This document shows positions 1 to 62,187 of a stretch of DNA of 64,000 nucleotides, piece after piece. The first letter of the stretch is position 1. Each line of letters begins with the position of its first letter. The DNA comes from Thunnus maccoyii. Taxonomy: Eukaryota > Chordata > Actinopteri > Scombriformes > Scombridae. The notes below the pieces were generated by a model, which had not been told where the DNA came from, did no database searches, and worked only from the letters and a program-made list of their open reading frames with translations. The stretch is from the NCBI RefSeq assembly GCF_910596095.1, contig NC_056539.1, positions 22,001,001 through 22,065,000 on the forward strand, written 5' to 3'. Made by a program: the position numbers and the translations under genes.

Positions 1-159
1 TATAACAGGTTGTGTTTTTTAGGCTCTTGAAGACAAGCTTCTTGTGGTTCATGTGTTGCAGCTGCATCCGTGTGTAGGAAAAGAAACTGGACTGCATGCA
101 ACATAAACGACTAATGTAAACCAATTACTGCGTTATTAAAAACGCTGCACTTGACTCAC

Positions 160-969
160 CACTAGCGGGGCTGAGCAGGCCAGAACCACCGCGGAGGTCA
201 TCACCAGCACCGTCATCATCTGCGTCTCCGCGGCGGAGGACAGCGCCCTCCACCGCTCCCGGACGCTGGATCTGGCGACGGGCAGCTGCACGGTCCTCTG
301 CCGCATCAGCAGCAGCGATCCGCACACCGCCAGGTTCAGCACGATGGTGCCCAGGATGAGCAGCACGCTGACGACGCCGTACAGGACGGTGTAGGTTGCG
401 GCCACAGGCTTACCCGCCCTCCAGTCGATGAAGCACCAGGTTCTGGACGGCTGCAGCTCGCTCCCTGCCATGCCCATCATCGGGAGGCAGCAGAAGAAGA
501 TGTGACTGATATAAATGCATAAAAGAAACTTTTGCGCAAAGCGTCGGTCCACCCCCCACCGCTGGTAGGTGTAGGGGCAGCATATAGCCAGGTACCGCTC
601 GGCAGCCATGGCGCATATGATGCTGAGTCCGGTTAAACCGAAAAACAGCAACAAAAAGGAGTCAAACTCGCAGAGATGTCTGTCAGTCAGCACATTCGGG
701 TTTAGGTAGTTGGCTATGGTGAGCGGGCTGGCCAGACATGTGCCCAGCAGGTCCGTCACTGCCAGACCGCACACCAGAGTGAAGAAAGCTGAAGATTTCC
801 TCTCCTGTCTTGATACTGAAAGAACGATTATCGCAATTATATTCCCAATAGCACCTCCAGCAAACATAAAAATCGGTAAAGCCATTCTGTTCTCAGTGGT
901 ACCCTGCGAGGACTGAACCGGCGTCTCGTTTGTGGAAACAGGAACGTGCGTAAAGTTTATGCTTTCCAT
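160..969 (-). CDS. ptger4: Prostaglandin E2 receptor EP4-like GPCR, large first coding exon (gene partial at window edge)
   Basis: This is a class A GPCR of the prostanoid receptor family, which binds PGE2 at the plasma membrane and in the EP4 subtype signals mainly through Gs/cAMP. The exon encodes an N-terminus with N-glycosylation sequons (NFT, NET) and TM1 to TM6. Prostanoid/EP4 hallmarks are visible: TLVCGLAVTDLLGT in TM2, GLSIICAM followed by the ERY version of DRY after TM3, and TWCFIDW in extracellular loop 2, with the ECL1 cysteine (LCEF) available for the disulfide. The coding part ends at 160 after the PLV of TM6, where a perfect GTGAGT donor (154-159) begins in phase 0. Prostanoid receptor genes are known to have an intron at the end of TM6, so TM7 and the tail lie beyond the left edge. 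I prefer the ATG at 967-969 because it has G at -3 and G at +4 and gives a short N-terminus. In-frame ATGs at 1003-1005 and 1102-1104 would add 12 or 45 residues. Intracellular loop 3 is much shorter than in human EP4. The paralogue (4a, 4b or 4c type) is not decided by the sequence alone; the gene context favours an extra EP4 paralogue. Confidence 0.88.
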
Positions 970-1181
970 TGCCAAATACACCCACGGGCTGGCGTTTGTG
1001 AGCATTACTTTCTTTGGTCTGTTGTGGACTTCGGAGTTGATTTCGTCTTGAACCTGCTGGAGAGTATGCGTACTTAGTGGAGTAATCTTTTCTGTAAGTA
1101 TCATCCCTCTGCTTCCCAGTAATCCAGATGTAGTGAACCACAGAGGTCGATACGCACAGCTGAGCTGTGAGGCGGGTTGTC

Positions 1182-1188
1182 TCTATAT
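1182..1188 (-). promoter_or_regulatory. Possible TATA box of the EP4-like receptor gene
   Basis: On the minus strand a TATATAG-type element lies about 80 bases upstream of the most distal in-frame ATG and about 210 upstream of the preferred one. A start some 25-30 bases downstream would give a short 5' leader. The assignment rests on position and motif only; an upstream non-coding exon is equally possible. Confidence 0.25.
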
Positions 1189-13370: not shown

Positions 13371-13375
13371 GAGGA

Positions 13376-26700: not shown

Positions 26701-29700
26701 TCCTCATAGTTTGACCCCTTTTTTTTTCTACCGTGCCTCTTCATGTTTCCCAGGAGCCACCAGAACACCCAGTGACGTCCTCTACCGTTTCCATGGTGAC
26801 GGCGTTCGCTATAAAGCCAAGCTGATTGGTGTGGACCCAGTGCCCACTGCCCATGGAGAGAAGACGTGCTGGGACTCCATGATGAAACTAAAGGTGTCCT
26901 CCTCCTCCCAAAATAAATTTATCTCATGTTTTCTCTTGATTAAATCTGGTTAATTGATGCTGAGTTGATCCTCTCGTCCTCTACAAGTCACACACAACCA
27001 TTCTATCTGAGAGAAAATTAAAAATAAACACCAGATGTCTGAGTGATTTTCAGAGGCCCACATTAAGTGAAACCAGATAAGTGTTATCTTCTGTCTCACA
27101 ATAGATGAAAAATGGCAGTTGCAATAATGAAGGCTACATTTGCCTAATCAGTCCAATTACATCCAAATACAGTGCCTATAAAAAGCATTCACTCCCCTTG
27201 GTTGTTTTCACGTTTGCTTGTTTTTACAACATTGAATCAAAGAAGGTAATCAACTGAAAAACATCCTTTAAAGATTAAATGAAAACAGATCTTTTCAGGA
27301 ATGGCTTAAAAAGAACATTAAAGCTGGAATGCGGGACTTTTGTCTCCCCCTTCTGGCAGTAAGAGTAATTACAAAAACACTGTCAACAGCTGCCTACGTC
27401 ACAGGCTCCAGTGTAGCCTACTCTGTCGCTACTGTTGCGGCTGTAAAACCGTGGATAAATTGTTTTGAGCATCAGTTGTTTCACTATCAGAATTTGATCC
27501 ATCCAAAAATTGTGAACCTGTCCTTTAATGTCCTGGAGTGGCCGAGTCAGAAAGAGTCCAGGCTGGAATCTTTCTCAATCTCCATGCAACCTGACAGAGT
27601 TTTGCAAAGAAGAACATGGAAAAATGGCAGTGTCCGGATATGTAATGCTAATAGAGACCGGTCCAAAAGTGCATATACTAAAAATGTGCTTGGAGGGGGT
27701 GAATACTTATTTAAATAAGTATTTTGTATTCTATATTTGTAATTAATTTAGATTACTTTGTGCACATATAGTTCTTGGCTCAATGAAAAGTTCCTCCTCA
27801 GTCATAGGTATTTTTCTTGCGAGTATAAACTATGGTGAACGTACTGGGGTCATCTGATGGAAAAGCAGTTGTGGGAAAGTTCCTGCAGAGGACAAAGTGC
27901 TGGTATATCTGACATCCCACTGAGACCTAACATGTCAATAATTTCAGGCCCTCTCATCTCACATGACTTTGTACTTTGCACTCCCCAGTGGGAATTTATA
28001 TCGAGTCAAGATTTTTCAGACATGGGTCACAAGCCTGAACTATCTCCAGTTAGCTATTCAGCCATAAAATAATGTTATAATAAGTCATATTTATCTTCTT
28101 CTACATATTTATATATTTTTCTTATATATAGTCTAACTTACTAACTTACAACTCCCAAATTACTGTCCCAACACCAAATCCGTTATGTGTAAAATTTGAA
28201 TAATTCTGATTTTGGCGCCTCCATTTGTAGTATAAAAAAGATCATATGTGGCAGACAGTGATGCATGCCAATATTGGACCAATTTTCAATGAGATTGTCT
28301 AAACAAGAACTTGTAAGATCAGATTTGAAAGATGTATAAATGACTGTTCGCTAACCCCCACTTAGCAAGTGTCAATACATCTGTCAGTTGCTTTTCATCC
28401 ATACACGGCACTTATGCACTTTACACTGATAATAGTGGCAAATTTAACACTCAAAATGTATAATGATTTTTAAAACAATGGGTCCTTGATTTCAGACAGA
28501 AGTGGACAAAAGCAGGTGATCAATTCTAAGCAATAGCTAGCTAATATATGCTAACGTTAGCTCCATCAGTTGGTTTAAAACGCTGTTTCTAGCTGATGTT
28601 TAATGCTTCCAGCCAACTCGTTTTGTAATAAAAACTCTGTGAAGGGATTCAAATATGTGCTTGATTCATGAGCGAGTTAGTACTTGAAGGAAAAATGTAA
28701 GATCAAACTGTTATTTTGTTCTAATATTTTTGTTGCTTAGATTGAATTCATTCCTATTTTTAAACCCTTTTAACATTAGGAGAGACAAGACTTTTAGGAT
28801 GAGGACTAATAGATGTGTTTGGCAAACGTAAAGCTATCTCGGATAAGGTGGGTTTGCTTGAGTGTAAACTTCCCCAAATCCAATAAAGAGCTGCTAACGT
28901 TATGTACCTAAATTCTCCATACAGAGCCAGCTTTCACACATCCAGGAAATACAACACACACAGTGGATGTGCTGTGTTTTTTTCTTTCTTTTTAACATAA
29001 CCTGTAAACCTACAAACTAATGTAGTTAGTTAATGATGGGCTAACTCTTGGCCTTAGAGGTAACGCTGAGATAGTAAGCTAATTAGCCAGACATGCTACA
29101 AATTACAAATTCATCAGACATACACAGTGTTTAATCCACTCATTACAATTTTTTCTTGTGTTTTTGGTTTAAGAAAGGCTAAAAAAGAGGCCACCACCCT
29201 GCATACTCTTTAAATAGCCTACAGAACATCTCTGCTACTAGAGCGCCATGTACACCGTTTTGGTAGTTTGACAGGCCTGCTGTGCCTAGTTACAGTTGCT
29301 AAGCTGTGATTGAACATCATTATTTGGGGAAAGGGTTCACCAAATTGTCAATTACATAAAAAACCTCTACATAGTGGCTTTTATTTAAATTATAATTACT
29401 ATAAATCATAGACTGTAAAAAAAAATATAAACGTAGCCAACGTGACACCACCCATTGGTTTCTGAAAGTGAGCAGATCAAGCCGTTGCCATCTTGGCAGC
29501 GCCTGACTCCGCCTAACTCCTAGCTAATCCAGATTGGTCACAGAGGTGGAGCTGAGATGGGCCGAAAGAAGTCTGGCTGCTTAAACAAGCCACCAAGCGG
29601 CTAGCAACCTGTCACTCAAAGCAGCCATGTCCTTAGTTATGCATAACTTTAATCAAATTTAAATGGGTGAGTTATAAAAAAATTCACCCCCCATACAATT

Positions 29701-30113
29701 GTCATGAAAGGGGAAATTGGCTATAGAGACCAAAACTGTTTTTTTGTACCAGGCTGTAAACATGTTTATTTCTGCTGTAAAATTTGGCATTTCAACATGG
29801 GGGTCTATGGGGATTGACCCGCTTTTGGAGCCAAACTCAAGTGGCCATTCGAAGAACTGCAGTTTTTGGTTTCTCTACATTGGCTTCATTGGTTCTTCTC
29901 TCTCCCTTGGATATGGTTGCTCTGCTCCATCTCACTCTAAAATCAGATTCTGCTGCTATTTTAAACCACTCAAACTTTTTTACCCAGTTTGTTCCCACAG
30001 GAGCAGCCAGGCTTTGGTACAAACAGTCAGGATTTATCTTTTTCATTATGATGAGAAATCCATATAGATTAGTTTCAGTCTCATTGGAACCTGTATTTCA
30101 TATTCACATTTAC

Positions 30114-30162
<49 letters not shown>

Positions 30163-33100: not shown

Positions 33101-36100
33101 TATTTAGATTTGTATTTTATTCATGATGTATAACTCATATCCAATAATGTTCGCCAGTTAGCAATCATGTACCTGTTTGGCTCAGCCGTCTCTCAACAAC
33201 AAGATAACTACAGCTAAAACTACGACTCAAAGAACAGTCTGCCTGATGCTATTGAAATCTATTTGTTTTTTATTGTTCCTAAATTAAAAACACAGACCAA
33301 ATCTTCTCTGTGTCTCTGTCTGCAGCCTTCTTCCAGTAATGAGTTGATGGAAATCTTCTCCATCCAGATGGAGGAGCCGCTGATGCCCAGCCAGAGCGTA
33401 TGTAGCATTGAGCCAGGTCAGTTACAACAAGAGAGGAACTGATACTGTATGAGATGTTTTTACTCTGTTAAGAGCAGATTTTCCTCTTGAAAACAAGAAT
33501 AACTCTTGAGTCTAACCACAGCCATCTATAATCTTTGGATGAAACATTTAACTTTAAAGTCAGTTGGGTCAGTACACGGGATTCATTCCTGTTTTCTATA
33601 TGTTTTTTGTCTTTAAATATCAACAACTAAAGCCTCAAATGTATACTTTCACAGTTCACTTTCACTTTCAGCAGTCATTTAAAAATACATTACACCAAAA
33701 AAAAGGGATTTTTCAGAGGGTTTTCAAGATTATTACAGCCAGAAATTACTAAATTAATTTACATACGCTTTTCAGAAAAAATTGGGATACAATTTGCATC
33801 ATTTTTCAATAAACTGCTATACATCCGGCTTCTAAAGTTTATTTCCTGTTTTTAAAAATTTGTTGTAATTTGTTGACTTTTACTGATTGCTGATTTGAGA
33901 GTTTAGCTCTGTTTTGTCTGTGGATTTACCTGACTTGTATTTAAAGGGGACAGCAGAAGAAAATGAACATAAGACAGCATGTATGAAGGCACAACATAAA
34001 TCAAATCGAATCAAATCAAGTTTATTTATAAAGCACATTTAAAAACAACCAGAGTTGACCAAAGTGCTGTACAATAAAGTAACATAAGTAAATTAAAACA
34101 ACATATCAAGGTAACAGCAAAAAAAAAAAAGGAGTAGAGATGACATAACAATACTATCCCATATGCAAACAAAAATAAACAAATAATAGTAAAACATAAA
34201 ACTTTAAGGACACTCAAAGGCCCAAGAGAACATGTGGGTCTTAAATTTAGCCTTAAAAGTGTCTACAGAAGAGGAACACTTAATTTCGAAAGGTAAACTG
34301 CTCCAAAGTTTTGGGGCAGCTACAGCAAACACACGTAGTACAACATAAAGTATGTAGTTACAATCCCTGATGCCATCACATCAAGGCCAGCATTCATACA
34401 GATGTAATGTGCAATCATGCAAATAAATGCCTTGAAAACCATTATAAAACTACAGCACCATAAAACAAGCAAACACCGCCTCCCTCCTCAGGGTGAGTCA
34501 CTGTTAGCATCTTTATCGTGTCTTATTGAATAAGAGCTTTGACACTTCTGCAGTGTGTTATATCACACATCACACTGTGGTGGAAAAACTGTGGTTGAAT
34601 AGAAATAAGATGATTGTAATGCAGTAGCGCCGAAACCTCAAAGCTCCGTTTACATCTTCATTAAACATCAATTGACAACAAATAAATCTTAATCAGGTCA
34701 AAACTAAACACTTTGTCCTCACTCAGATACACTATATATTAAATCGTTGAATATCTGCAGTCATTAAACTCATAAGAATTTGAATTTCATTACAATTACA
34801 CATAATCAGTAGGCTAAATTACTGCAAACCCCACATTATACATAATATACTGTATATTATTATAATATACATACTGGTGTTTGCGTGACTTATTCATATT
34901 TGACATTTAGGGTGATGTGCGTCATGAGTGGTGCGTCATGAGTGTTTGTCCTCAAAATGACACTGGAGTGAGTGAGGATGTCCCATTTGATAAACTAAAT
35001 TCCTCCGTCCTCACGTCTCCTCTCTCACTCTCTCATCCTTGCTGGGAGGAACTAAGACGCGAGGAAGAGAGGCAAGTGAGTGACCTTTGACCTTTGACCT
35101 GGAGGAGCAAGAGAAAAGAAAGGTTTCCCTGAATGTACATAGTATTTTCCCATCGTCAGTCTGTGTATGTTTTCTGTGACATGCACGCTTATTGTGGATA
35201 TTGTAATTCCCATGATACAGCTGGTATAGAGCCAAGTTTCAGTCATGTTTTAAAATTATATACAGTAAGACAAAGGAAGAACAGATGATCTCGCAGATAT
35301 TCAGCCTTTTTCAGCACATGCTCAGTTCCCACACTGGAAGATTAGATGATCCTCTGTCCCTCTTTTTGAGAAAAATAATGAATCATGAAATGCAGAAGAA
35401 ACACTGATACAGAATCTTTTAGATTTTAGATATTTTGTCGAAGGTCTTCTGTGTTAACATGAGAGAAGGCAGCAGTGTGATGTTCATGTAGTGCAGTGAA
35501 AATTCAGAGTGTGGAGGTCGGGATAGAGGGTAGTAATATCTTCAAGGCCTGAGTTTACGTCTTTTTAATAGTTAACAATTACAACAATTTTTCCCAAACC
35601 TTAACCAAATGGTCGTATTTCCCTCAATGAATCACACATTTTCAATACAGATGAAATGCATTAATCAAATAGTAATCAAAAGTTGGCAAATAACCTTCAA
35701 AAATGTTTCATTAAAGGAAGTTGGGATTTGGCAAAATTGTCCAATATCACCTAGAGTTCAAGTTAACAATTATTTCCATTATTAGTTTATCTGTTGATTA
35801 TTTTTTCAATTAATCGCTTAAACTTTTAGTATTTAAAAGTTTAAAATGTGAGAAACCAAAAGATATTATATTCAAAATTATGTAAAACAGAGAAAATGAA
35901 CGAATCCTCATGTTTGAGAAGCTGGAATTAATGTTTATTTGGCATTTCTGCTTGATAAATGACTTAAAGGGAAAGTTTGACATTTTAAGAAAACACACTT
36001 ATTTACTTTCTGGTCGAGAGATCTCATGTCTGTGTAGTAAATATGAAGCAAGAGCCAGAAGTGGATTAGCTTAGTTTAGCATTAAGAGACTGGAAACAGC

Positions 36101-36704
36101 TAATCTAGCTCTGTCCAAAGGTAAAAATCCACCTACCAGCACTTCCAAAATTCAATAATTCACACATTATATTTAATTTGTTTAATCCATAAAACAGTAT
36201 AAACAGACAATAATGTGTAACTGTACAATTAAAGCAGATCTGAGTTTCAAAGACTAACTTAATTTCTCTTCTTTATTTCTTCCAGAATCTCCGAAGCAAG
36301 TGTTGTCCAACCCTCAGATCCTCTCCATGTTCCCCACACAGCCAGTAGGGGGCTCTCCATACTCCTCTCCCCCATACTCTCCTACCGCCATGCCCTGGGG
36401 CCAGCAGGGGCCACTGAGAACCCAGAGGGCAGGTCCCATGGGTGCAGCTCCCTGGCCCACCATGAATGGTGGCATGGTAGCGTGGGCAGCGACAGGCATC
36501 ACTGCTCTCCCTACAGGCAGCCAGATTCAGGCTCACAGCTCTCAGCCCGGGGTCATGATGGGAGGAAACACAATCGATTACCCGGCTGCGCCCTCTGCCG
36601 TTAACGGGTACCCCACCCCTCTAAACTCCCCCTACAACCCCCCTGGAGCGACAGCAACACTGCAGTCGATGTCCCCCTCCATGGAGCATAATCCCTTCCT
36701 GTGA
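23788..36704 (+). CDS. dab2: Disabled-family (Dab) PTB-domain adaptor, 9 coding exons, complete
   Basis: Dab proteins are cytosolic endocytic and signalling adaptors whose PTB domain binds FxNPxY tails of LDL-receptor-family proteins and phosphoinositides. Exons joined in phase: 23788-23872, 26754-26893, 30217-30315, 31205-31336, 32428-32508, 32600-32647, 32803-32859, 33326-33416, 36286-36704. All have AG/GT borders, total 1152 nt, 383 residues. The PTB domain spans about residues 36-165 and shows [23 protein letters not shown] and [12 protein letters not shown], as in DAB1/DAB2. The strand where both human proteins read RAFGYV is RALAYIY here. The tail is rich in Pro, Gly, Ser and Met, with a single NPF near the end and a short LMEIFSIQ segment possibly matching LFGDMS of DAB2. 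I see no DPF motif and no PPVPxR SH3 ligand, and the protein is roughly half the length of human DAB2 (770 residues). The ATG at 23788 is followed at once by a second one. Symbol dab2 is the nearest family label; the context suggests a third Dab paralogue. Confidence 0.85.
25240..25479 (-). other. Unidentified 79-codon open frame in dab-like intron 1
   Basis: The minus-strand frame encodes an ordinary, non-repetitive composition beginning [19 protein letters not shown] and predicted to be partly helical. I do not recognise the family. It may be a remnant of a transposon protein or chance. No splice sites or promoter could be tied to it. Confidence 0.25.
27172..27725 (+). pseudogene. Decayed, internally deleted Tc1/mariner-like transposon
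   Basis: The left end reads CAGTGCCTATAAAAAGCATT, a phrase typical of fish Tc1-like inverted repeat ends. The right part (27529-27720) is a decayed transposase 3' region, with GTCCTGGAGTGGCC, 'ttttgcaaagaagaacatgg' and finally 'gggggtgaatacttatt'. Most of the transposase gene is missing and the rest has lost its frame. A TTAA MITE (27315-27528) is inserted in it. Confidence 0.65.
27315..27528 (+). mobile_element. TTAA-bordered MITE, family B, copy 2, nested in the Tc1 remnant
   Basis: Starts TTAAAGCTGGAATGCGGGAC and ends CTGTCCTTTAA. Homologous to 8872-9080, sharing 'agtaattacaaaaacactg' and 'caggctcca'. TTAA on both sides fits a piggyBac-type target site. No protein is encoded. Confidence 0.65.
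29405..29870 (+). repeat. Dispersed fish repeat in dab-like intron 2
   Basis: It begins with 'catagactgtaaaaaaa' and 'gacaccacccattggtttctg' and carries 'tggagctgagatggg', 'caacatgggggtctatggggattgac' split into short blocks, a phrase set common in spiny-rayed fish. The limits are approximate and no protein is supported. Confidence 0.5.
30117..30211 (+). repeat. (TG)n microsatellite ending at the dab-like exon 3 acceptor
   Basis: About 95 bp of TG repeats with a few C/A interruptions run to within 6 bases of the exon 3 start (AG at 30215-30216). The usual pyrimidine tract is therefore replaced by a UG repeat in the transcript. Confidence 0.95.
30331..30411 (+). repeat. (TC)n microsatellite just after the dab-like exon 3 donor
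   Basis: About 80 bp of TC/TTTC repeats begin 15 bases after the GTGAGT donor at 30316. In the transcript this is a CU-rich tract. Confidence 0.95.
31680..31910 (+). repeat. One-armed relative of the 21935-22719 MITE
   Basis: It shares 'ttttaaaacaatagtcaggtg', 'aatcattcctc', 'taagtgatg' and 'gtttatctgaagc' with the left arm of the 21935-22719 element. The opposite arm is not present. It lies in dab-like intron 4. Confidence 0.55.
34010..34360 (-). pseudogene. LINE 3' fragment (L2/CR1-like) in dab-like intron 8
   Basis: It starts with 'caaatcaagtttatttataa', a typical 3' end of L2-like fish LINEs seen in reverse. It continues with 'ctgctccaaagttttgggg', the reverse of the conserved '...P.LWN.LP' coding end that is better preserved at 41320-41500. 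Frames are broken. Confidence 0.55.
35753..35960 (+). repeat. Dispersed 'aatcgattag' repeat, copy 2
   Basis: Contains 'attatttccattattagttt', 'caattaatcgctta', 'aaaatgtgagaaacc' and 'gagaagctggaat', matching the family at 16943-17310 and 59033-59330. Located in dab-like intron 8. Confidence 0.5.
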
Positions 36705-46172: not shown

Positions 46173-49100
46173 GGGGAGAGCGTTGATGTCAAGGCTCTGA
46201 GGGCCAGGTTCAACAGCAAGGCCAGCACTTCAGACACCAGCAGCCGAGACAGCGGCTCCCCAAAATCTCCACGACCTGGATTTGGGAGAGGAATCTTACC
46301 AGCACTAGAGAACAACCTGGCCCAGCACAGATTGTCCCCCACGGTCCCTCCTCCAATGGCTGGCCCTGGCCTGATGAGGTTCCCACGGGCAGAGCCGATG
46401 ATGGCAGCTCCCATCCCCTCCAGACCTGTTTCTTTCCCTCGACCGCCTCCCAATCTAGGCATCAGAGCATCCAGCCAGCCGGCAGACCCTATCAAAGTCA
46501 AGCAGACGGGAGAGATGCTACAGAACATGATGCTGAAGCACCACAGACCTGCGGGCATCAAGCCAGCTCCACCCTCAGCTCCAGGTCAGTCTCCTGCACC
46601 AGGTCACGCCTCCACCCCTCTCCCGCTCCGACAGCAGCCCAGACAGAGGAGCGCAGGAGATGTGACCCCGCTGAGGAAACCCCTTCCCCCTGAAGGACCC
46701 CTGCCCTTAAAACCCAAACGGCCTCCACACGTCAACCTGGAGCCCTTCATGAGGTTGACTCGGGGAGCTCCGGCACTCCCTAGTCCAAGGAAGAGTGATG
46801 GTGAGTCTGTTAACAGCAGAAAACTTGAAGTGCTTTTCTGTTTTTGGGGTTGGTGGGTAGTGGCAGTGCTTGGTGGATTTAGATATAGCTCAAGGACAAA
46901 CGGTTTCCTGCTCTGACATCTTGTATTTTGATTTGACAAAGCATGTTACCATTTAATTTTTCCATAAAAAATATATTATTATTTTTTACTGACTCAAAAT
47001 ACTTTTTAAGTTGTATCAGTAGCACCTGTTGTCTTCAGGATTTTTGTAGTTTATGCTGTTGTTTGTTTGTCGTACTGGTGATCCAGGAGTTTAAACTTAT
47101 ACTGTTGTTACTGATGTCAAGTCACATTCAATTGAAAGTTACTGTAAGTCAGTTGACTGGATAGATTTAAAATCTAAATACAGTGGTGGGAAAAGTATTC
47201 TGTTCTTCGCTAAAAGGAAATTAGAGATACTGAACTTTAAAAATGTATGTTGTAAACACTGTGTCGTCAAACATTTGCTTAAGTAAAAACAGAGTATTTG
47301 CACTTAAATTATCAAAGTTGCCACCATGCAGAATGCTACAGTGAGTTTCAGACTGTGCAGTATTAGATATATATTATTGTATTAGTATTGGTGATGCATT
47401 AAAGTGTATGCACCTTTTTAATGTTGTAGTTGGTCAAATTTTAAATACTGTTGGGTAGTTAAATCGACTGTAACTGCATCGTCATCTGCATCATCCATGT
47501 ATTTTGTAAGCCCGTTGAATGCTTTGTATGTTCGATCTTACCAAAGTAACCTGCAACGATTGCGGTCAGATAAATGAAGTGGAGTAAAAAATAAAGTATA
47601 AAATGGAAGAAAATGTAAAAGCTAAAGTAAAGTACAAGTGACTCTAAATTGTACTTAAGTACAGTACTTGAGTAAAACTTTTTTTTTAATATACCATTGT
47701 TTAAATATTGCTGAGAAAGCATCGATCACCAGAAGAGTCTTCAGCCCGAAAGTGCTTCCATCAACATTTCCAAAATGCAGATTATTCTGTCTTTAGTGAT
47801 TGTTTCATTCTTTAAGACAAGCAACAACTCTGGCAAACCACAGTACGCTTCATCTCTGTGTGAAAACATGCTAATTAGAGAGAAAAGAAGCAAAAAATGA
47901 CTTTTTGTTAACTGAGTCGGTGTGACTGTTATTAATGCAATGTTATCCATCTCATTTTGCAAGAGACTTCTTCACATATGGATGTTCTCTCTGGTTCCCC
48001 CCACCAGCAGGTTCCCCAAGCACAGGAGGCAGGAAAATGTCTTCACCTGCAGTGATCAGTCCTCCCCAACCTCCACAACGATTCAACAAACCCCGGCTGC
48101 CACACCAGGTCGCCTCTGTGTGAGTATTTCGCAAAATTTCATAACATACTGCTGTTATTACACCAACTGCAGGGTGAGTGCACACAGAGAAACCTGCTTT
48201 AGGTATTTATTTCATATCATATACATTCTGCAATAATAAAATCAGGGAGTGTACCAGAATAAAAAAAGAGTCTTATTTCAATCACAACTGCCATGATGGC
48301 AGGCAGGAAATAGTGTGAGTTTTTAAAAATCCGCTACACTCATAATCAGAATACACAAATGCAGTACACTTAAAGCAAAATAAATCATATCAGAGGCTGC
48401 AATTTAGAATTAGACAAATAGAGGTTTAAATAGAATATCAGCAATATGTGGGAACATCACACCGTTTAGGGGACATTTTTCAAAACTGAGTCTCCAAGTG
48501 CCATCACGCTTTCTCCACCCCTTTCCTGTCAGGCTTTATTTTAATCGTTCTAACAAAGGTGAAATGACGCCATTTTACACATAACAATCAAATAGCTGCT
48601 TTTTGTTTTCCTTTCTATCTAAATGACGTTAAATATATAGACTATATATTTATGGTGTGTTACATTTGCAGAAAAATACCTTTCTTGGTAAGTAATACTC
48701 ATCAGTTCACAAGTAGAGATTAACACTGTCGCTTGTTCTCAGTCAGTGAAAAGTAAAGGTGTTAAGTGAAGAAGTTGCTGCAATGATGTAGTGATATTTT
48801 AGAGTGACATTGTAATATTGTACTGTCTTTCTTTCTTTCTTTCTTCTACAAGTTCTAACTTCTACAAGTTATTGCTGTATAGGGAGCACACAAACAATGT
48901 TTGTTTATGTATTTACTGCAGTGACATTGAGGATGACCAGGACACCTATGATGACATTGCAAGCTTTGAGAAGAACGGTAAACAGAAAAACTGTATTTTT
49001 TGAATGATTCATGACTGTAAATCCTTTGGTTCGTAAAAATCTACAATGTGCAGAATAGTATAATGTGAGCTTATTCTTATATTTTTCAGTTCAGAGTTAA

Positions 49101-52100
49101 GTTTGAAAATGACATTTATCACTTTCTGGTAGAAAATGATTACCTAGTTATTCTTTTAATACCTTATCAACTAATGACTTCAATCATATTTCATAGGCTC
49201 CATATTCTCCTCATATTGTTATGATAATAAAGCGTTTATATATGAGAATGTGCCTCTTTTTAGAAGGAAAGAGTGCCTTTCATCTCTTTTTTATTGTGTA
49301 ATTTCACAGAGTCCTGGAGTGACAACAGTTCTCATTGTATGGACGGGGTAAGGACAGAAAACTGAAACTAAACCTACTGTAAATACAAATGTCGTTCTGA
49401 GAATTCTAAACTAGGTGGCTCCTCTTGTAGAACATGTTGCACTCTTCCCTAAAACTACAAACTAAAGATAAAATTAAGTTTAAATACTAATTTACACCTG
49501 CTGAAATATCAACTTTATTTTGTTGTGACGAATAACAAATAAACTTCATTCATTGTCAATGAAGCACGCGATTTGTTTGATTTCTAGCTTCGGGAAGTGC
49601 ACATGTTCATACACATTGATGCACAAATGCAATCTGTTCTAGGGCATAAAAAAGACAGCAGGTGTCATTGCCCTTTAATCTAAAAATCTTTGTATATGCC
49701 TGTTTTTCTTTGTTCTTTAAAAGTGTAAATAAATCCTTTCTCTTGTAGGACATTGATGACGTGTATGAGTTTATTGACGAGTGAGTATAAACTTTCAGTT
49801 TTTACAATTGAATCAAATTGTAGTGTGTGAATTTAATAAGGACCCTACTCACCTAAAATGGAGTGTGTCTGCAGCTGCATGAACGTGTTTTTATTATTTC
49901 TGGCACTGCTACTTTTATTTTTGCATCTGCTGCTACCACAGCTGCGGTAGCTATTATTGTGAGAACAACTGTCATAGCAGTACGCCTCTCAATTAAAGGT
50001 GTTATTTCTGCAAATGATCATAATCTGAAATGTTATTTGCTCCATTCGTCACAAGGTAACAACATTTTAATTGAGTGTGTGTTCAGCCAAAATGTTGGTG
50101 TGCATTTATATTAAATGTGCAAGTGTGCAATGATATTTCTTTCATTTATGGTTATGTGTTGTTTCTGTGATTCAACATTACTTCCTGCAAAATCAGGATA
50201 ATGTCACAAAACAAATGGACAAACTGTTGAAATAATCACATAATTGGAACACACTGAAAAAGTGAAAGGGGAAGAAGTTTGTTGGATACTGCTGCTATTA
50301 ACTGTGAAATGCTCAGTGTGTGAATGAATTCTGTCTGATTGTTGTTTTTGGTCAGGTGAATTTTTATGTGCCAGTAAAGATACATCTGTTTTCACCAGAA
50401 CTGAAAGTGTTGAGAATATTTTACATGTAGGAGGTGTATGTTGTGATGCGGGGAATTGTCTAAAAAGGTGAAAAGTCATTTTTCATTTTGATTGTGTATT
50501 TATAGGGACCAAATAGAAGTGAACCTGGTTAATGCTGAGAAGAAAAACAAAAAAGAAGCCAAGAAGCAACAGGAGCAGGAGAGGAAAGAGCAGCTAGAGC
50601 GTCAGAAAAGAGAGAATGAGTTGAGGAAAAACTTTCAGGTACGACCCCAACAACATCCTAAATGCCATTAACATGAACTAATTAAAAAGTCTTTTTTAAA
50701 TCTATTTTTTATTCCTTCTTTGACATTCAGATGGACCATTTAGTTTACGTGCATCCCGAAACATTGAGGCTCTTTGTTTCCATCCACCCCATCTTCATCC
50801 AAATCTAATTCATATCTGTCAACTTTCACACCTTTGCTCTCTGCCCCTTTGTAGGTGCAAGGGGAGTTGGATGTTATCCATACAGCGAGAGTCCGGCACG
50901 ACTGGTACGGAGGAGGAAGACTGGACCTCAGTGTGCAACAAGGCGAGAGCGTGGAGATCATGCGAGTGAACAATAACCCAGGAGGCAAATGGCTGGCTCG
51001 CTCCCTGAACGGAAACTGTGAGTTTCATTTTAAATCTCACTGCAAATCAAGAGCAGGAAACCTTCCTATCTGAGCCCACATCACAAAGTTAGGCTGATGG
51101 TAATATGCTCTTAAACTTTGTGCTTGATTTTTTTAAAGATGGTGAGCAAGTTTATGAATTCCAGATTGAAAGTGCTGTGTAGTCCAGTTTTCTGTAAATA
51201 TCCAACAATACTCAACTTTATGTCCTTCTATTTAGCATTCATAAGCAGTATATAAACAGTTATATCTGTTGTATTTGTTTATAACTACAATATAGCATAT
51301 TATAAACCATTCATTAACTTATGCTTATTAATGATAAATGGGGGGGCATATTAGTATGCTATAGCATAGTGCTTTGGAAAACAGTTTGTGCACCTGTGTG
51401 TGTATGTTCTTGTGCTTATGAGGACCAATTTAGTTTAGATATATCATGTTATGCAGACAATGCTCAACTCTGCCTGTGAAACCAAAGAGGCCTGCTAACC
51501 GTATCCCTCTCAACCACTCAGCCTCTGTCTAATGGCAAACATTTTCCTCAACCTTTCTAGTAATTAATATAAAATATGCAAGCAATTATAAAGGACAAGA
51601 TGTCCCATGTAAGACAATAACGGAATAAAGTTGGAGACAAAGAATGTCACAAAGCAAAGCAGAGCGATATTTTTTCCATTGAGAAAATAAGGTTGTGGAA
51701 AGTAATGAGATCATCATCTTGTCTTTGTGTTACCTTGCAGACGGATACATCAGTAACACATGTGTGGACATTGACTATGAGGCAGTGAAGCGCAAAGCGC
51801 TCCAGTCCAGAAAAGTAGACACATCAACGTTACCTCCACCACCTCCAGACCCCCCTCACATGTTAAACATGGAGTCCAATAATAGAGACAGGTGCAGTAG
51901 ATCCTGTTCATCCTGCTATGACAAAACACTTTAAAAAATTGTTGTACTATATTGTGAGAAACATTTATCTGCTCCTAACATATGATGTTGCTATTCTGTC
52001 AACTTTTTCCAATGGTTTTAAGTTCATGCACAGTCAACACTTAACTGTTTAGCTGCATTGCTTTCTTAGTTTCACCCACGTCTGTTCCAACTAACTTGCT

Positions 52101-55100
52101 GTTTGTGTTTTTCATCTGCTCTGCAGCATGCTTCAGGATGACGGTAAGTGACAGTACAGCACACATGAACATCACTGGCAGATTAGGATTCATGCCATAT
52201 AAGATATTGCCATATTTATTTACTTCACTCACTGGACAAAAAACAACATATCCATAACTCTTTATTAATCCTAAAGAACAGAAAATATGGTTTGAATGTG
52301 GATTTAATGTGGGTGAAAACACATCACCAACTATTACTACAATGAACCTACCAAAGATAATAAGTCCTGGAAAACTATTCTCATGTTTTACTAGAAAATT
52401 TTATCATAATATCATTAAACATTTTACTATATGAGTTTATTGTTTTGTTTTGTTTTCTTAGCTGTGTCAAGTATGAATCTGTTGATTTATTTTGTTTCAG
52501 CTCTAATTTTTGTATTTTTGGTATAATGCTCAATGTTTCAAACTTGTATACATTTGCAACAGGAACTTTATAATTCAAACAGTGACTTGGATTATTTTAT
52601 AATTTGCCTAAAATTTTTAATATCACTCATTTAAAGTTGAGGCTGCTTTCCTAAAACATATTTTTTTTAAAAATCTGAAATAGAGTATTTCACCTTTTTT
52701 ACAAGATGACAAGATATTTTTAGTTTTACAGTTATTTCTCGGTACTCTCCTCAGATGACTACGATGACGTTCAACCATTAACTGAGGATTTTCCCCCACC
52801 ACCGCCTGAAATCAGGTATCTATCCACATCTGGTTCACTGAAAAAACAGGAAATAGTTGGTGAGATACTGACAGCTACATGTAGCTGCAGTATTATTTTA
52901 GTATAAAATCTTGATGTTGAGCTGATAATTGAGGTGATGGTCAAATAAGAACAGAATTAGAAAAGGAAAAAACAAAAAATCTGGGAAATGCATTACTTTA
53001 TTGTTGTTGTCTTCTGTTATCAAACTGTAAAACCATCTTTGTTTGCAGCATAGATCCCAAAGTGGAAAAGGAACTAAGAAAAAAATTTAAGGTAAGTATT
53101 TTTCACACTTTCACATCAGATTATTTGATTTTAATGGTAAATAAAGTAGAGTGTCATCAGCATAGCAGTGAATGGAAATGTTTTTCTGAATTATTTTTCC
53201 AAGAGGAAGCATACAGGGAGAAAAAGGGGGCCCAGGATGGATCCTTGAGGAACTCCACATACAATCCACAATAATGAAATGCATCATATCCACATAATAC
53301 AACATGTTATAGTGGCCCCGTTAAAAATTGCAAAACTGAATCATGTCATTCTCAAGTTTACTCATCTAATTGACAGTTTCTGAGATACAGTGTGTGCTAT
53401 GAAGGATGAATTTGTTAGTAAGTGTAAGGCTCGTCCAATTGGTGACATTTTAAAACCACCTGAACACAAAAAAGTGTGTTGAAATTTGATCACTGGACAA
53501 GTCAACCAATGATGATCTATACTTTTTTTGTGTTGACAATGATTGTAATCAAACATGATGGAGAATTGTGCTTTCACAAGAGTAGGTATAATTTTCTTCA
53601 AAGATCAAATATCTTGATCTTTTAATCCAATCAAAAAAGTCATATTACTGATCCTTGCAACAGTCAGTACTAACTTGTATCAACATCACACCCATCACAC
53701 CTCTTTGTACTATACAAGTGTATTTGACCAAGGCAGTGAAAATATAAAAATGTTGGTTAAATAATGAAAAACTCAAACTATGACTCTTGTTTCTCAGTAT
53801 GATGGGCCTCTCAGTGTGCTGCACACCATGATGGTGGATCCTAACAGCATCATAAAGAAGCCAGGGGGGAAGGATTTGTCTGTGACTCATGGAGAGGTCC
53901 TGGACGTCATCCAGCTCACCAGCAGCAAGAAAGCTCTGTGCCGCAACCGGTTTGGAAAATGTACGTAAACACAACAAATCCTGCTGTGATCGTATGTTAA
54001 TTTAATCTGCACTGTGACATGTGAGCAGTTGGTCAAAGTGACTGGTTTTAGAAATAAGAGTTGATGGTTTGTGTAAAGGTTACCTGAGGTGATCAGGGAG
54101 ATTTTTGCATAACCAGGAGGAGGTCAGATGTATGTGTCCAGAAGTAGACATATGTTCTCTCAGAGTGTCAGTGAGCAGAACTCTCAGATTTACTAAATGA
54201 CTCATTTGCATTTGCAAGAACAATATACTGCGGGCATTAGTGTCTCCGCACTTTGAACTAAAAGGGAAGTTCTTATCCTTATCACATCACTCCACAAAAT
54301 CTTTATGATCATGGCTATGTGATAAAAATTTTTTTGCAACAACACCTGTAATAACTCCATGAATAAACACTGTCAAACATAATAGTAATGGAAACTAGGA
54401 CGACATCAAACGATTATTTTCATTATCGACGAAATGATTTTCTAGACATTGAATAATTTCTTGTTGATTTTTGAGAAACTGAAAGTTGCCATTGTTTGAC
54501 ACTTTTGTTTTATAAAAATAACTAAATGATTATATAATTATCACAACAGTTGCTGATTAATTTTCTGTCAATCAACAAATTGATTAATTGACTAATCATA
54601 TCAGCTTTAATGGAAATATACTAAGCCATTTTGGTGCACAAATTCTTGCCCGTGCTTATAATATTGCACCTGCTCAGTGTTTCATTACTATCAGATCCCA
54701 GTAGCTCTTCTTTTGTTTTTCTGTGACTTGCATAGTAGTGGCTTGTTAATAATAATAATGATAATAACTAAACACAAAAATAGAGTCATAAAGTTCCAAA
54801 ACAAATGTGTATTGTTCGTATTTTATAGCTGATGCACAACCTCTGCGTGATTGGTTCCTGCTGGTGGCACAGCACCATGCTGTGGGAAATATACTGTACA
54901 ATGATTAGTGTTTGTCTGATGGTTATGAAATGAATATTGCAATAAATAAAATACAGATGATAATATAATAAATTCAGTAAGAGCTGTATTTCACATATTC
55001 AAAGTGACTGTTTTACATAAAACATGTTTTGTCTCACTCTTCACAGATGGTTATGTGTCCAGATCTCTTCTTCTTCCAATGTAAGTGAATCCTCCTCAGT

Positions 55101-55890
55101 TCATATTTGACGCTGCCAGTTTTAGTGTTACTTTCATGTCTTTTTATACTGTGAGTAAATTATGAAATATCTTTTTGTAAATGCGTTTTATAGTTGTGGT
55201 AACAGCTCATCTTTGACTTTGATTTTCATCTTATTATTATTATTATAAATGATTTTTGTTGTTGTTTTTGACAGGATGGATGAAAAGAGTAATTTAGTGA
55301 CACAACAAAATAAATAGATCATCACATATGAATATAGTCATACATATATACATTACAGACACACATGCAGCATATATTGTTTATTATAATAATAGAAATG
55401 GGTACATATACATATTCTATGTATGGACCCATTTTTACAAATCTAAACATATAGTATACATTTTTATCCATGTTTACATAAATGCTTTTCTCATTCTTCA
55501 TATCATATCATATCATATCATATTATATCATATCATATCATATCATATCATATCATATCATATCATATCATATCATATCATATCATATCATATCATGTTA
55601 ACAAGTTTTGGATATAGATTTTAAACAGAAATATCAATAAAAAACAACTTTCTGCTGTCAGTTTAACATCAATCTTCATTCACAGGGAAGGAGACATCTA
55701 CGACGATGTTGACTATGGAGGCGGTGAGTTTTGTTTTAGATCCTATTAATGTAATTTCTTGTTAAATTGAAATATTCACTTATGGCAGCTAATGTGTTTG
55801 ACTTTTTAATATATGTATCTCCTAAACTGTTTTTATTTCTTTCTTCTTTCAGACGTCTATGACAACGACTCTCTGCAGACTGATTATTAA
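46173..55890 (+). CDS. pram1: ADAP/PRAM1-family immune adaptor with two hSH3 domains
   Basis: These adaptors (FYB1/ADAP, PRAM1) link Src kinases and SLP-76 to integrin activation in blood cells. Exons in phase: 46173-46800, 48011-48119, 48922-48977, 49310-49347, 49749-49780, 50506-50638, 50855-51017, 51741-51891, 52127-52143, 52755-52815, 53049-53091, 53798-53960, 55047-55080, 55686-55723, 55853-55890. They total 1704 nt; with the candidate start exon the protein has 572 residues. Order: proline-rich disordered half; TYDDI near 260; a charged helix (about 293-337); first hSH3 (about 338-415, VQGELDVIHTARV, GKWLARSLNGNYGYI); YDDV at 450 and FPPPPP at 460, an EVH1-type ligand; second hSH3 (about 483-547, MMVDPN, GGKDL, GKYGYV); IYDDVDY and VYDND at the end. 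The second hSH3 resembles PRAM1 (MMIDPN, GGGKHL, LLPLE) more than FYB1, while the first is FYB1-like. The alternative name is fyb1. The 5' end is the least certain part. Confidence 0.85.
47180..47700. repeat. Degenerate 'aagtacttgagtaaaa' repeat in pram1-like intron
   Basis: Starts 'agtggtgggaaaagtattctg' and ends 'cttaagtacagtacttgag'. These are end phrases of the families at 44000 and 5050. Confidence 0.45.
52127..52143 (+). other. 17-nt microexon of the pram1-like gene
   Basis: TCTGCAG precedes and GTAAGTG follows 17 bases that encode SMLQDD and change phase from 2 to 1. Both flanking exons need it to stay in frame. It lies just before the exon with the YDDV and FPPPP motifs. Confidence 0.7.
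53111..53290 (-). pseudogene. LINE reverse transcriptase fragment in pram1-like intron
   Basis: On the minus strand a short frame reads LPLGKIIQKN then CYADDTLLYLPL, the catalytic YADD block of a non-LTR reverse transcriptase, like the one at 42015-42404. Surrounding sequence is too decayed to define the ends. Confidence 0.65.
54395..54615 (+). repeat. Dispersed 'aatcgattag' repeat, copy 3
   Basis: Contains 'cgattattttcattatcgac', 'gttgctgattaattttctgt' and 'attgattaattgactaatc'. Same family as 16943-17310. Located in a pram1-like intron. Confidence 0.5.
55498..55596 (+). repeat. (ATCAT)n pentanucleotide microsatellite
   Basis: About 20 near-perfect copies of a TATCA/ATCAT unit in a row, with one TTATATCA variant, inside the pram1-like intron before the penultimate exon. 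Confidence 0.95.
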
Positions 55891-56361: not shown

Positions 56362-56367
56362 AATAAA
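56362..56367 (+). terminator. Possible polyadenylation signal of the pram1-like gene
   Basis: AATAAA about 470 bases after the stop codon, in an AT-rich 3' region. Confidence 0.4.
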
Positions 56368-58669: not shown

Positions 58670-58893
58670 GGCGTCATTGCGTCATCGCTGCGTCGCGTCT
58701 ACCAAAGCTACGGAAGAAGAAGAAGTTCGATTGACTCGGTGCTTCCTGTTCAAAGTCCAGCAGAGGAAATATGCAGTATTAATCCGTAAAACTATAACCT
58801 GAGGATGTCGAGCATGAATGAGGCTCATCACAGAGTTTCATCGATCAGTTTTGATTTATTTTACAGCTCTGTGTGTGTGTGAGAGCTGCAGAC
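58670..58893 (+). promoter_or_regulatory. CpG-rich start region and leader of pex11g
   Basis: Around 58670-58740 there are several CG dinucleotides and CGTCA/GCGTC motifs in otherwise AT-rich surroundings, a plausible housekeeping-type promoter. A small upstream frame (58805-58882, 25 codons plus stop) precedes the real start unless TTTTACAG at about 58859-58866 is used as an acceptor and removes it. Confidence 0.35.
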
Positions 58894-61325
58894 ATGCAGC
58901 AGTCTCTGGAGTCTCTGGTCCGCCTGCTGGAGTCCTACAGAGGAAGAGATAAAGTTGTGAGTAACGTGATTCAGCTGATGATGAAGGCTGTAAATAAACT
59001 GTTAGGGGATTATACATAAGTGTTATGTTAATTGGGACTGCAACTAACGATTATTTTTATTATCGATTAGTCTGTCGATTATTTTCTCTATTAATCGATT
59101 TGTTGTTTGGTATATAAAATGTCAGAAAATGGTGAAAAATGTCAATCACTGTTTCTAAAAGCCTAAAGTGATGTCTTCAGATGTCTTAAATGTCATGTTT
59201 TGATTCTCAGTTTACTGTCATAGAAGACTAAAGAAATCAGAAAATAATCACATTTGAGAAGCTGGAATCAGAGAACTTGGACTTTTTTTCTTTAAAAAAA
59301 TTACTCAAAACAATTTTACTGTGTGATATTGTGATATTACCTCAGAAACGTTGAAATACTGCATTAATACTGTATGTCGAAAATATACAAACAACAAAAA
59401 GAATATGTTGCGCATCAATGTGCTTTCATCAAAAGAGAATTAAAAATAAACATTATACATATCCTACAGATTTCAAGATTTAGTTTATTGTCATTTTCTT
59501 GTGTACTTGCATTCACAAAAAACTGAAATGCTGTTCCTCCAAACCTACAGCAGTGCAACAACAACAGAACGGATAAAGATAACATGTAAATCCCATATAG
59601 AACAACAAAACAAACAAACAAAAAAAAAGCGTATAAAAACAAGTGCATAAAACATGTTATAGCGTCCTCTTATAACTCTCCCTGTCTCCTACTCAGAGTT
59701 TTCTCTCTCTCGTTTGCCCTTGCAGATCAGGACGGTGTGTTATGGCTCCCAGCTGGTCGGAGGAGTTCTTACCCGTAAGGCAGAAGCAGACGTTTCATCC
59801 CGCCAGCTCGGGAAAAGTCTGCTGCTGTTTTCTGCTCAGCTCAGCCACTGCAGGACGGTGCTCAGGCTGTTCGATGATCTGTCCATGCTGGCTTACTCAC
59901 AAAGCTACGGGTTTGGAGCCGAGGTGTGCCACACAACTCCCCTCTAATCAGTTTGCTCTATCAGGGCTGCAACTAATGATTATTTTCAGTATCAGTTAAT
60001 CTGCTGACTAGGGCTGGGTGCTATCACCTAAAATAAACAGATAACCCCGGATAGTCATTTTAATGCACCATATTCAGTAGTAAAGAACACTTTTAGTTAT
60101 TTGTTTGCTAAAACAGGAAATTCAAAGTAAAATATGGTTCTGTTGAGCATTAAATCCTCACATTAGAGAACCCGGAAGTTGCAAATTTTTTTTGTTTTTT
60201 TCTTTAAAAATTACTGAACAATTATTCACTTATCACAGTAGTTGCTGATTAATTTTCTGTCGATCAATTAATTGTTGCAGCGCTACATGGGATATGTTGT
60301 TAATGAGTTAAGACTAATAAAATAATAGTTATCTGTTAAAATGATGAGCATGTACAGCCATATATGTCCTAATTCATCTTAGATCTTCATGTTTGTAATA
60401 TATATACAGCTTCACAATGTGGCAGTTAAATGCAAGATTAACGCATGCATGTCTTCTAAAGGAAGAGGACTCAGCCGTGCGCTGGATATCGGTGTTGACC
60501 AACGTGGCCGACCAGCTCTACTACCCCTGTGAACACATTGCCTGGGCTGCTGATGTCGAACTCATCAAACTGAAGTCTGATAAATGGTGGCTGTTTAGCA
60601 CGGTACTGTGGGGAACGTCGCTGCTGCTGGGAATACTCAGGTGAGGTCATCTTTCCACAGATTTCACATCATCAGGACACGGTGATGAGAAATGTATGGA
60701 GTCCCAGAAATGACAAATATCACTTTAAGACAAGGGTGTAATTTACGCTGTCATATTTTTATACCCCTCACTTTTCAGTGTCAGTTTTAGTAATTTACTA
60801 AAATAACTCTAAACATAGTCATCTAACTATCCAATCACCAAAATCCAGACCAGATGAGCTCTGATATGATCAAAATGTTAATATTCTCATCTGAGTCATC
60901 TTCATTTATTACTGTGTGTTACAGGAATTAAACTTTAAATAAGTACAAAGGGATTTTTGCCCTGGATTCCATGTCTCACATCTAATGTTTGGTTGCATGT
61001 TATTGGTGTTTATGCAGCCTGCAGACACTACTCATGGCTGAAAAAAATACTTTGCCTCTACATTGTAAATAACACAATAATTTTATCTTCTTTTATGTAC
61101 AGATAATTATCTTAAAAAGACACCAGAACAGATAAAAAACAAGACAATGCAGTAAAAGACAGTGCTCTTTACAGTAGAAATTGAAATTATGTTCAATAAT
61201 ATCATTATTTATGGTCTTTAAAGATTTGAAATAGTGGTTTGATTTTAGGGGTAGTGCATCATAATGCAGCAATTTAAGTGGAATGTTTTTGTCTACCATT
61301 ATAGATTTACACATGAATGTTATCC

Positions 61326-61370
<45 letters not shown>

Positions 61371-62187
61371 CTTTAGGCTACCTGATGATTCAAAAGTGTA
61401 ATTTTATAAAAAAAAAAAAAAAAAATTAAAGACTAATGAATGAAGTAAGTCAAACAGTAATGCACTGTAATGTATTGGGAAAAAGGGATAGATTAGTATC
61501 AATATGTATTAAATTGATCTTTTATATTTATGGTACTTTGTGTATTTTTTCTTATTTAAAAGATGGTTTTATTAGTATGCTGTGTTGAAAGGTATCTTGT
61601 CTGACCGTCACTATGACCTCACTTAGACAAGTGGATTAATTTAACTAACTAAATATTTGAAATCCTCACTTGCAAAGTGAAGATCATGTTCAAAAGTTTA
61701 ATTGTAACCTTGAGTACTCGTTAATCTCTTCCTTTACCTGCTCAATATGGAGCATGAAGACCATCAGTCATGTGAGTCCTTTGTTCTGCAGGTCACTCCG
61801 AGTTCTGCTGTTACTGAAGAAGAAGCTGAAGAGATGTGAGAGAGACGGAGCCGGCAGCAGGTGGTCTTTCAAATATTTGATGTCTTTGCAATAATATAGA
61901 CATAGACATGATGAGATCTTTCCGTCTGAAACTACGTGTCCTGATTAACTTTCTGTTTTTTCTTTTCTCGCAGTCGCTCTCGGCTCCGCAGGCAGATGCA
62001 AGGAGAGCTGCTGTCTGTCCTCAGCAGCATGGCTGACCTCAGTAATGCTATTCACTGGATGCCGCCCGGCTTCTTGTGGGCAGGACGATTCCCCAGCTGG
62101 CTGGTCGGACTGATGGGCACCATCTCGTCTCTGATTGGTTTGATCCAGATGAGCGCTGGCGACAGTGAACAATCTGAAAGTGCCTAG
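58894..62187 (+). CDS. pex11g: Peroxisomal membrane protein 11 gamma (Pex11g), complete, 5 exons
   Basis: Pex11 proteins sit in the peroxisomal membrane and drive elongation and division of peroxisomes. Exons joined in phase: 58894-58956, 59726-59923, 60462-60640, 61792-61860, 61974-62187. Total 723 nt, 240 residues, practically the length of human PEX11G. Family features: LESYRGRDKV near the N-terminus (about 12-21), QLSHCRTVLRLFDDL in exon 2, DQLYYPCEHIAWAAD at about 104-118, a hydrophobic segment 129-146 (WWLFSTVLWGTSLLLGIL), a basic stretch (LLKKKLKR), then MADLSNAIHW, WAGRFPSWLVGLMGTISS and a second hydrophobic segment near the C-terminus. The start ATG has G at -3. All borders are AG/GT. 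Introns 2 and 3 contain repeats and a (TG)n tract. Confidence 0.95.
59033..59330 (+). repeat. Dispersed 'aatcgattag' repeat, copy 4
   Basis: In pex11g intron 1. Opens 'gggactgcaactaacgatta', has 'tgtcagaaaatggtgaaaaat' and 'tttgagaagctggaatcaga'. It is the best preserved left half of the family in the window. Confidence 0.6.
59960..60290 (+). repeat. Dispersed 'aatcgattag' repeat, copy 5, interrupted
   Basis: In pex11g intron 2. The left end 'gggctgcaactaatgattat' and the right end 'gatcaattaattgttgcagc' are present; the middle is replaced in part by other sequence from about 60010. Confidence 0.5.
61328..61366 (+). repeat. (TG)n microsatellite in pex11g intron 3
   Basis: About 19 uninterrupted TG units, followed some 40 bases later by a run of about 18 A residues (61408-61425). 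Confidence 0.95.

Follow-up and report, generated by a model that had tools for sequence, protein, structure and literature searches.

A probable 19p13 member of the EP4–Disabled–FYB gene block, with a third Disabled-like gene, in Thunnus maccoyii

We analysed a stretch of 64,000 nucleotides of Thunnus maccoyii DNA (the window; C7:22001001-22065000) and searched the genome (782 Mb, 54 contigs, denoted here by C and a number) for relatives of the genes in it. From left to right the window holds the main exon of an EP4-like prostaglandin receptor (-), a Disabled-like gene (+), an adaptor gene with two hSH3 domains (+) and pex11g (+). This order and these families were read from the sequence alone in an original prediction, and all four genes were borne out by open frames and by Pfam and PDB scores. 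The match scores lie far above chance and confirm the family assignments as real. The gene content is that of a bony fish. We modelled the genes manually, using open frames and splice borders but no transcripts, and chose borders that preserve the frame; inner exon borders are AG/GT throughout the three multi-exon models (Disabled-like, adaptor and pex11g). The features are as follows.

160..969, minus strand: EP4-like prostaglandin receptor, main coding exon with transmembrane helices (TM) 1 to 6 (open frame, PDB score, GTGAGT donor at 160)
26754..36704, plus strand: third Disabled-like gene, 8 exons, 354 aa (frame to stop, Pfam, PDB, trees); exons 26754-26893, 30217-30315, 31205-31336, 32428-32508, 32600-32647, 32803-32859, 33326-33416 and 36286-36704 (stop)
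46173..55890, plus strand: PRAM1/FYB-type adaptor, 15 exons, 567 aa, stop at 55890 (frame, PDB, Pfam)
50506..51891, plus strand: exons of the N-terminal hSH3 domain of the adaptor (PDB score); basic helix 50506-50638, core 50855-51017, end 51741-51891
53049..55080, plus strand: exons of the C-terminal, PRAM1-like hSH3 domain of the adaptor (PDB score, tree); 53049-53091, 53798-53960 and 55047-55080
58894..62187, plus strand: pex11g, five exons, 240 aa to the stop, which is the end coordinate 62187; exons 58894-58956, 59726-59923, 60462-60640, 61792-61860 and 61974-62187

The original prediction treated this block as separate from a ptger4-dab2-fyb1 locus and a dab1-fyb2 locus, and such loci are present in the same genome: ptger4, dab2 and fyb1 lie on C19, and dab1 lies beside a fyb2-like match on both C7 and C12. 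A profile search with hSH3 gave two matches, C19:13329430-13329603 (-) and the window, and this was unchanged at E<=10. The C19 fyb1 locus encodes both N- and C-terminal hSH3 domains of the FYB1 type. When the N-terminal hSH3 of FYB1 was used as query there were seven matches at E<=10, the best four being fyb1 on C19 (52% identity), the window (44%), C7:9581893 (-) (42%, E 3.6e-5) and C12:8865349 (-) (39%, E 3.1e-4); the remaining three had E values of 0.35-3.5. The matches on C7 and C12, which the hSH3 profile missed, share a strand with dab1 exons at distances of 31 and 30 kb; we take these weak exon matches for fyb2 by match and position. The fyb2-like and dab1 exons together occupy 36-40 kb of one strand in each case (C7:9581893-9621519 and C12:8865349-8901097), and dab and fyb-type genes stand head to tail at these two sites (C7:9.6 Mb, C12:8.9 Mb) and in the window.

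A search with the PTB domain of DAB2 gave 11 exon matches in four loci: C19:22578562-22579339, C7:9613456-9621519, C12:8895521-8901097 and the window. The C19 exons match the DAB2 PTB at 79-91%, and the exons on C7 and C12 score higher with DAB1 than with DAB2. Three further candidates found through PTB helix exons (C10:16.19, C19:18.03 and C7:14.26 Mb) had no Disabled homology at E 1 against the PDB Disableds and were discarded. With the receptor exon there were 43 matches, four of which reach at least 45% identity: the window, C19:20778368 (48%), C9:13810602 (49%) and C12:10947899 (47%). The other 39 are at 38% or less. C19 holds fyb1 (13.33 Mb), ptger4 (20.78 Mb) and dab2 (22.58 Mb) at spacings of 1.8-9.2 Mb, and a further ptger4 at C9:13.81 Mb is 75% identical to the C19 copy.

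DAB2/DAB1, C6/C8A and PRKAA1/PRKAA2 are described as pairs of ohnologues from two rounds of early vertebrate genome duplication (2R) on human chromosomes 5 and 1 (PMC4995730). A genome search for MACPF domains gave 45 exon matches. On C12, dab1 and the fyb2-like match enclose two of these (C12:8873188 and 8878327), and a third (C19:22564587) lies 14 kb from dab2; by position we take them for c8a/c8b and c9, respectively. These positions beside dab1 and dab2 fit the DAB2/DAB1 and C6/C8A pairs of that study. The window block resembles the 1p32/5p13 paralogon (PRKAA2-DAB1-C8A/PRKAA1-DAB2-C6; PMC4995730) in that gene families are shared and kept in blocks. It differs in that there is no MACPF match near the window, the two on C7 being at 29.2 and 29.5 Mb.

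The fourth receptor of EP4 grade, at C12:10947899-10948645 (L045), lies 2 Mb from dab1, the MACPF matches and the fyb2-like match, and 0.39 Mb from a second copy of med26. It may be the EP4 that belongs to the 1p32 branch; the nearby med26 makes a teleost-duplication sister of the window receptor the other candidate, so that the C12 gene need not be the 1p32 receptor. A prostanoid-receptor-like match at C24:15910389-15911273 (L047) has one TAA inside, and the open frame there is 305 aa.

To describe the surroundings, open frames were read by eye over 60 kb to the left (at least 75 aa) and 40 kb to the right (at least 60 aa) of the window, so further genes may be missed. The left flank holds the last receptor exon, a gene with a TPT domain that we take to be slc35e1-like, med26, tmem38a and a thrombospondin nearest COMP. 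Three Pfam Med26 domains mark med26; tmem38a scores 138.9 bits with TRIC-A versus 65.9 with TRIC-B, and the thrombospondin scores 224.6 bits with COMP versus 130.6 with THBS1, with THBS3 and THBS4 absent from the four PDB hits. The genome has one copy of the slc35e1-like exon and two of med26, the second at C12:11.34 Mb (51% and 70%). In the window, pex11g scores 170.3 bits with Pfam PEX11 (the scored sequence differs from the final model at the exon 4/5 junction) and is single copy, the eight PEX11 matches in the genome falling in three loci (C5, C15 and the window).

The right flank holds an apba-like and an abca-like gene. The former scores 266 bits with APBA1 and 252 with APBA2 in the PDB, and single domains of APBA3 score 126 and 109 versus 128 and 124 for those of APBA1. 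The latter scores 778 bits with ABCA1, 709 with ABCA7 and 647 with ABCA4. Exon identity to human APBA1 is 83-94% on C9, 78-93% on C19 and 61-89% for the flank gene. Identity to human ABCA1 is 65-94% on C2 versus 53-83% for the flank gene, with C2 ahead in four of four pieces, and 75-93% on C8. Because closer apba1 and abca1 loci exist elsewhere in the genome, the flank genes are likely, by exclusion only, to be APBA3 and ABCA7. C5, which has a second apba-like gene, was considered as the duplication partner of the window and dropped, since that gene may be an apba2 copy. The comparisons use assumed human map positions and an assumed human PRAM1 sequence, and we take human COMP, TMEM38A, MED26, SLC35E1, PRAM1, PEX11G, APBA3 and ABCA7 all to be on 19p13. 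On those positions, pex11g, med26 and the slc35e1-like, tmem38a-like and comp-like genes are 19p13 neighbours by profile or PDB score, and the evidence for a 19p13 setting is widened from pex11g to recognised neighbours on both sides.

We then compared trees with approximately unbiased (AU) tests. Human EP4 clusters with the C19 and C9 receptors, and the window and C12 receptors fall outside. AU values for the window receptor were 0.244 with C19, 0.012 with C9, 0.027 with C19 and C9 together, 0.007 with C12 and 0.034 as the outermost branch. When we included the TM7 exon and removed outgroups one step at a time, the values for window with C12 were 0.006, 0.005 and 0.078 (the last with one outgroup), those for the window outermost were 0.024, 0.020 and 0.121 and those for window with C19 were 0.25-0.27. 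In the PTB tree fish dab2 joins mammalian DAB2 (88/83) and the dab1 copies join DAB1 (98/84), and the window gene lies outside both. Its placement inside the dab1 group is rejected (AU 0.0055 and 0.0035), and neither a sister position to the whole DAB2 group (0.434) nor one to the whole DAB1 group (0.258) is. For both hSH3 domains, fish fyb1 and human FYB1 form a group without the window (N-terminal 84/82, C-terminal 89/84). When the assumed human PRAM1 sequence is added, the C-terminal hSH3 of the window pairs with it (79/79), although PRAM1 outside window plus FYB1 is not rejected (AU 0.216); in this set window with fish fyb1 is rejected (AU 0.001). The best trees thus put the window genes outside the FYB1 and DAB2 clades, as the original prediction would have them, with window PTB plus fish dab2 close to rejection (AU 0.058). 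In a joint four-row set (receptor, PTB and both hSH3 domains) the best arrangement was C19 with mammal against window with C12. Two-against-two site patterns were 17:1:2 (receptor 12:1:0, PTB 5:0:2), which argues against a recent fish copy; hSH3 adds no patterns, C12 having no row there. A split before the divergence of fish and tetrapods is favoured by the best trees and the site patterns, with the AU test of the rival pairing, window with C19, borderline in the joint set. The trees lean toward a separate window branch without deciding alone, and synteny carries the case.

Together, these data support the idea, chiefly through synteny, that the window block quite probably represents 19p13 among the ohnologous blocks that 2R produced. 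The separate loci, the best trees and the neighbours on both sides all favour the 19p13 counterpart put forward in the original prediction. The block would be a third surviving copy of the gene set known from human chromosomes 1 and 5. Its sisters would be the 5p13 member, which occupies C19 and has an additional receptor on C9, and the 1p32 member, present at both C7:9.6 Mb and C12:8.9 Mb, two sites that we take for a teleost-duplication pair. The three would date to 2R, and the receptor and Disabled members would have been lost from 19p13 in mammals. Ohnologues are described as lying on different chromosomes in blocks that keep content and order (PMC4995730), which is what we found, yet the window and one 1p32-type copy share C7. 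The same source describes similar domain architectures, and here these are hSH3 twice, PTB with NPF, and seven transmembrane helices.

Several points weigh against this conclusion. The original prediction spoke of a 2R quartet; three of its branches were seen, and a fourth was not seen among the loci found in the genome. The receptor trees alone permit window and C19 as sisters (AU 0.244-0.267), the joint set does not reject this pairing (AU 0.0512; window with mammal 0.017), and the node uniting DAB1 and DAB2 to the exclusion of the window gene has weak support (71/57). Both the window row and the C12 row are long, and attraction between long branches may contribute to the site patterns. A second med26 lies beside the C12 receptor, though most AU tests reject window with C12. 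The fyb2-like and MACPF loci were assigned by match and position, and the comp-like call rests on four PDB hits that include neither THBS3 nor THBS4. Finally, ABCA1 and APBA1 are the best PDB scores of the right-flank genes, above ABCA7 and APBA3, and both are presumably on human 9q.

The AU values for window with C19, that for window PTB with fish dab2 and a gene order and strands that we take to be those of human 5p13 would also suit a fast-evolving teleost copy of the 5p13 block, made in the third genome duplication or in a subsequent segmental one, that afterwards moved beside 19p13-type genes. We consider this very unlikely: the 5p13 branch of the receptor already has two copies (C19 and C9), the site patterns and the rejection of window C-terminal hSH3 with fish fyb1 speak against it, and the block has 19p13-type neighbours to its left and right, of which profiles or scores identify five (comp not against all paralogues) and exclusion two. 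The genes might otherwise belong to a real pre-teleost branch other than 19p13, either a fourth one or what is left of 1p32 on C7, that was joined to pex11g and its neighbours by rearrangement; a dab1/fyb2-like locus on the same chromosome and the 9q-type scores of the ABCA and APBA neighbours would suit this, but we give it little credence, as med26, slc35e1, tmem38a and the comp-like gene on the left and pex11g on the right fit 19p13, the C-terminal hSH3 pairs best with PRAM1 (with the reservation given above) and window PTB inside the fish dab1 group is rejected.

The receptor frame spans 136-1182 (-), with the start Met likely at 969 and further in-frame ATGs at 1005 and 1104. The last exon lies beyond the left edge of the window (L022, C7 about 21999979-22000335), so the window contains only part of the gene. 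Its best solved relative is human EP4 (212.7 bits), and the best chain of another receptor, prostacyclin, scores 102.5. The binding residues and signature are of the EP4 type: T69, S73, T76, Y80, L99, T168 and W169 are retained and S103 is replaced by Gly, and in TM7 IRIASVNPILDPW is retained, as is AIRIASVNPILDPW. The ligand roles of these positions are our assumption, apart from that of the threonine in the second extracellular loop. That threonine is considered essential for prostaglandin E2 (PGE2) in a paper on ayu (PMC4726814). After the end of TM7 the tail has 69 residues, versus 144 in the C9 gene. Because the ligand-side residues of EP4 are retained, the gene is likely to encode a PGE2 receptor of EP4 type with a short tail. 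As a comparison, identity to human EP4 over TM1-6 is 50% for the window receptor, 72% for the C19 gene and 77% for the C9 gene. Extra fish EP4 subtypes have already been published: PTGER4C, with lamprey at its root, from gar, coelacanth and 11 fishes, and PTGER4D from seven fishes, gar and coelacanth (PMC6504862), and zebrafish EP4c has been termed the most divergent EP4 (PMC4383505). The window receptor may be one of these subtypes. No relatives of the receptor exon were confirmed in wider genomic and viral contig collections (18 + 8 pattern stretches).

The Disabled-like protein has a PTB domain with the sulfatide motif of the family (Pfam DAB2_SBM 45.4 bits, cut-off 27; PID 23.3 bits, cut-off 20.9) and scores 145.2 bits with DAB2 and 138.5 with DAB1 in the PDB. 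Its first coding exon was sought and not found. The PTB is 48.9% and 51.1% identical to mammalian DAB1 and DAB2, and fish dab2 and the two dab1 copies are 91.0, 89.3 and 81.5% identical to their own mammalian counterparts. The changes are unevenly spread. Among columns invariant in five other Disabled PTBs, the window gene is altered at 6 of 42 that fall in the first half and at 19 of 34 that fall in the second (Fisher p 1.8e-4). Counted in this way, none of the five others, one of which lacks its last exon, shows such a skew (p 0.63-1). In what we take to be Dab1 numbering, the positions K45, R76 and K82 are retained, a Cys stands in the column of F158, a residue that we assume to belong to the NPxY groove, and the last helix is interrupted by D-P. 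Judged from sequence, the NPxY-binding groove of the family (F158 and the C-terminal helix) is not preserved. The lipid-facing half of the PTB thus appears to be kept and much of the peptide-groove half to be lost. The protein ends in NPF, its single NPF, and has no DPF or DPW. Dab PTB domains bind NPXY motifs and phospholipids, and EH-binding sites are described in DAB2 and none in DAB1 (PMC4389405). The window gene shares the PTB, the DAB2-type sulfatide motif and the three lipid-side positions with DAB2 and DAB1, and a C-terminal NPF, of the EH-binding kind, with DAB2 and not DAB1 (PMC4389405); it differs from both in its much altered groove half. The protein is likely to be a membrane-bound adaptor that has kept the ability to read acidic lipids through the sulfatide motif and the lipid-facing half and recruits EH-domain proteins through the terminal NPF. 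Binding of NPxY cargo has probably been given up, because of the Cys and the broken helix. That the gene is instead a decaying pseudogene, compatible with either origin of the block, and its odd PTB half the product of drift seems unlikely: the PID score is barely over the cut-off and the first coding exon is missing from our model, but eight exons with AG/GT borders form a single open frame of 354 aa and drift alone would not yield such uneven changes.

A fragment of a Harbinger-type transposase (13524-14180, DDE_Tnp_4 49.9 bits) lies between the receptor and the Disabled-like gene, and a reverse transcriptase fragment of a long interspersed nuclear element (41320-42431, -; RVT_1 42.3 bits in the frame 42015-42428) lies between the Disabled-like gene and the adaptor.

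The adaptor scores 156.7 bits with Pfam hSH3 over two stretches, and its N- and C-terminal hSH3 domains score 90.6 and 72.7 bits with FYB1 in the PDB. No first coding exon was identified with confidence. It has one YDDI and two YDDV motifs, and we take these phosphomotifs to be ligands of SLP-76-type SH2 domains, as in FYB1. The hSH3 domains of ADAP and PRAM-1 bind acidic lipids (PMC8152464), and PRAM1, FYB1 and FYB2 are bound by SKAP SH3 domains (PMC10939263). The adaptor would probably act as FYB1 and PRAM1 do, with phosphorylated YDDV/YDDI engaging an SLP-76-type SH2, the proline-rich part a SKAP SH3 and the two hSH3 domains acidic lipids. It shares a proline-rich front, YDDV-type motifs and hSH3 domains with FYB1 (ADAP) and PRAM1. 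It differs from PRAM-1, described with one hSH3 (PMC8152464), in having two, like FYB1, and we read this layout as the ancestral state kept. A dispersed repeat of 227 nt (44497-44723 and 57183-57409, 94% identical) flanks the last exons of the adaptor gene, and a tandem TCATA array of 19.8 copies (55498-55596) lies in an intron near them.

We lean, with some reserve, toward a broader statement: that bony fish keep a third Disabled ('Dab3') that arose as an ohnologue of DAB1 and DAB2 in 2R and disappeared from 19p13 in mammals. Its PTB would bind lipid only and not NPxY, and its neighbour would be a PRAM1 that retains the two-hSH3 layout of a common FYB ancestor. We found no report of a third Disabled gene, of the evolution of fish pram1 or of the three-branch synteny in the part of the search results from openly licensed literature that was screened. 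The roles of the receptor, the Disabled-like gene and the adaptor are predicted from sequence. If the 19p13 origin is true, the linkage of DAB, complement and FYB genes known from two branches, on human chromosomes 1 and 5, becomes a three-branch linkage in one genome, and one extra fish EP4 receptor gets a place in the 2R scheme. It would account for the origin of mammalian PRAM1 and for what that gene has lost, and the Disabled family would gain a third paralogue, one whose PTB domain seems to have separated lipid binding from cargo binding.

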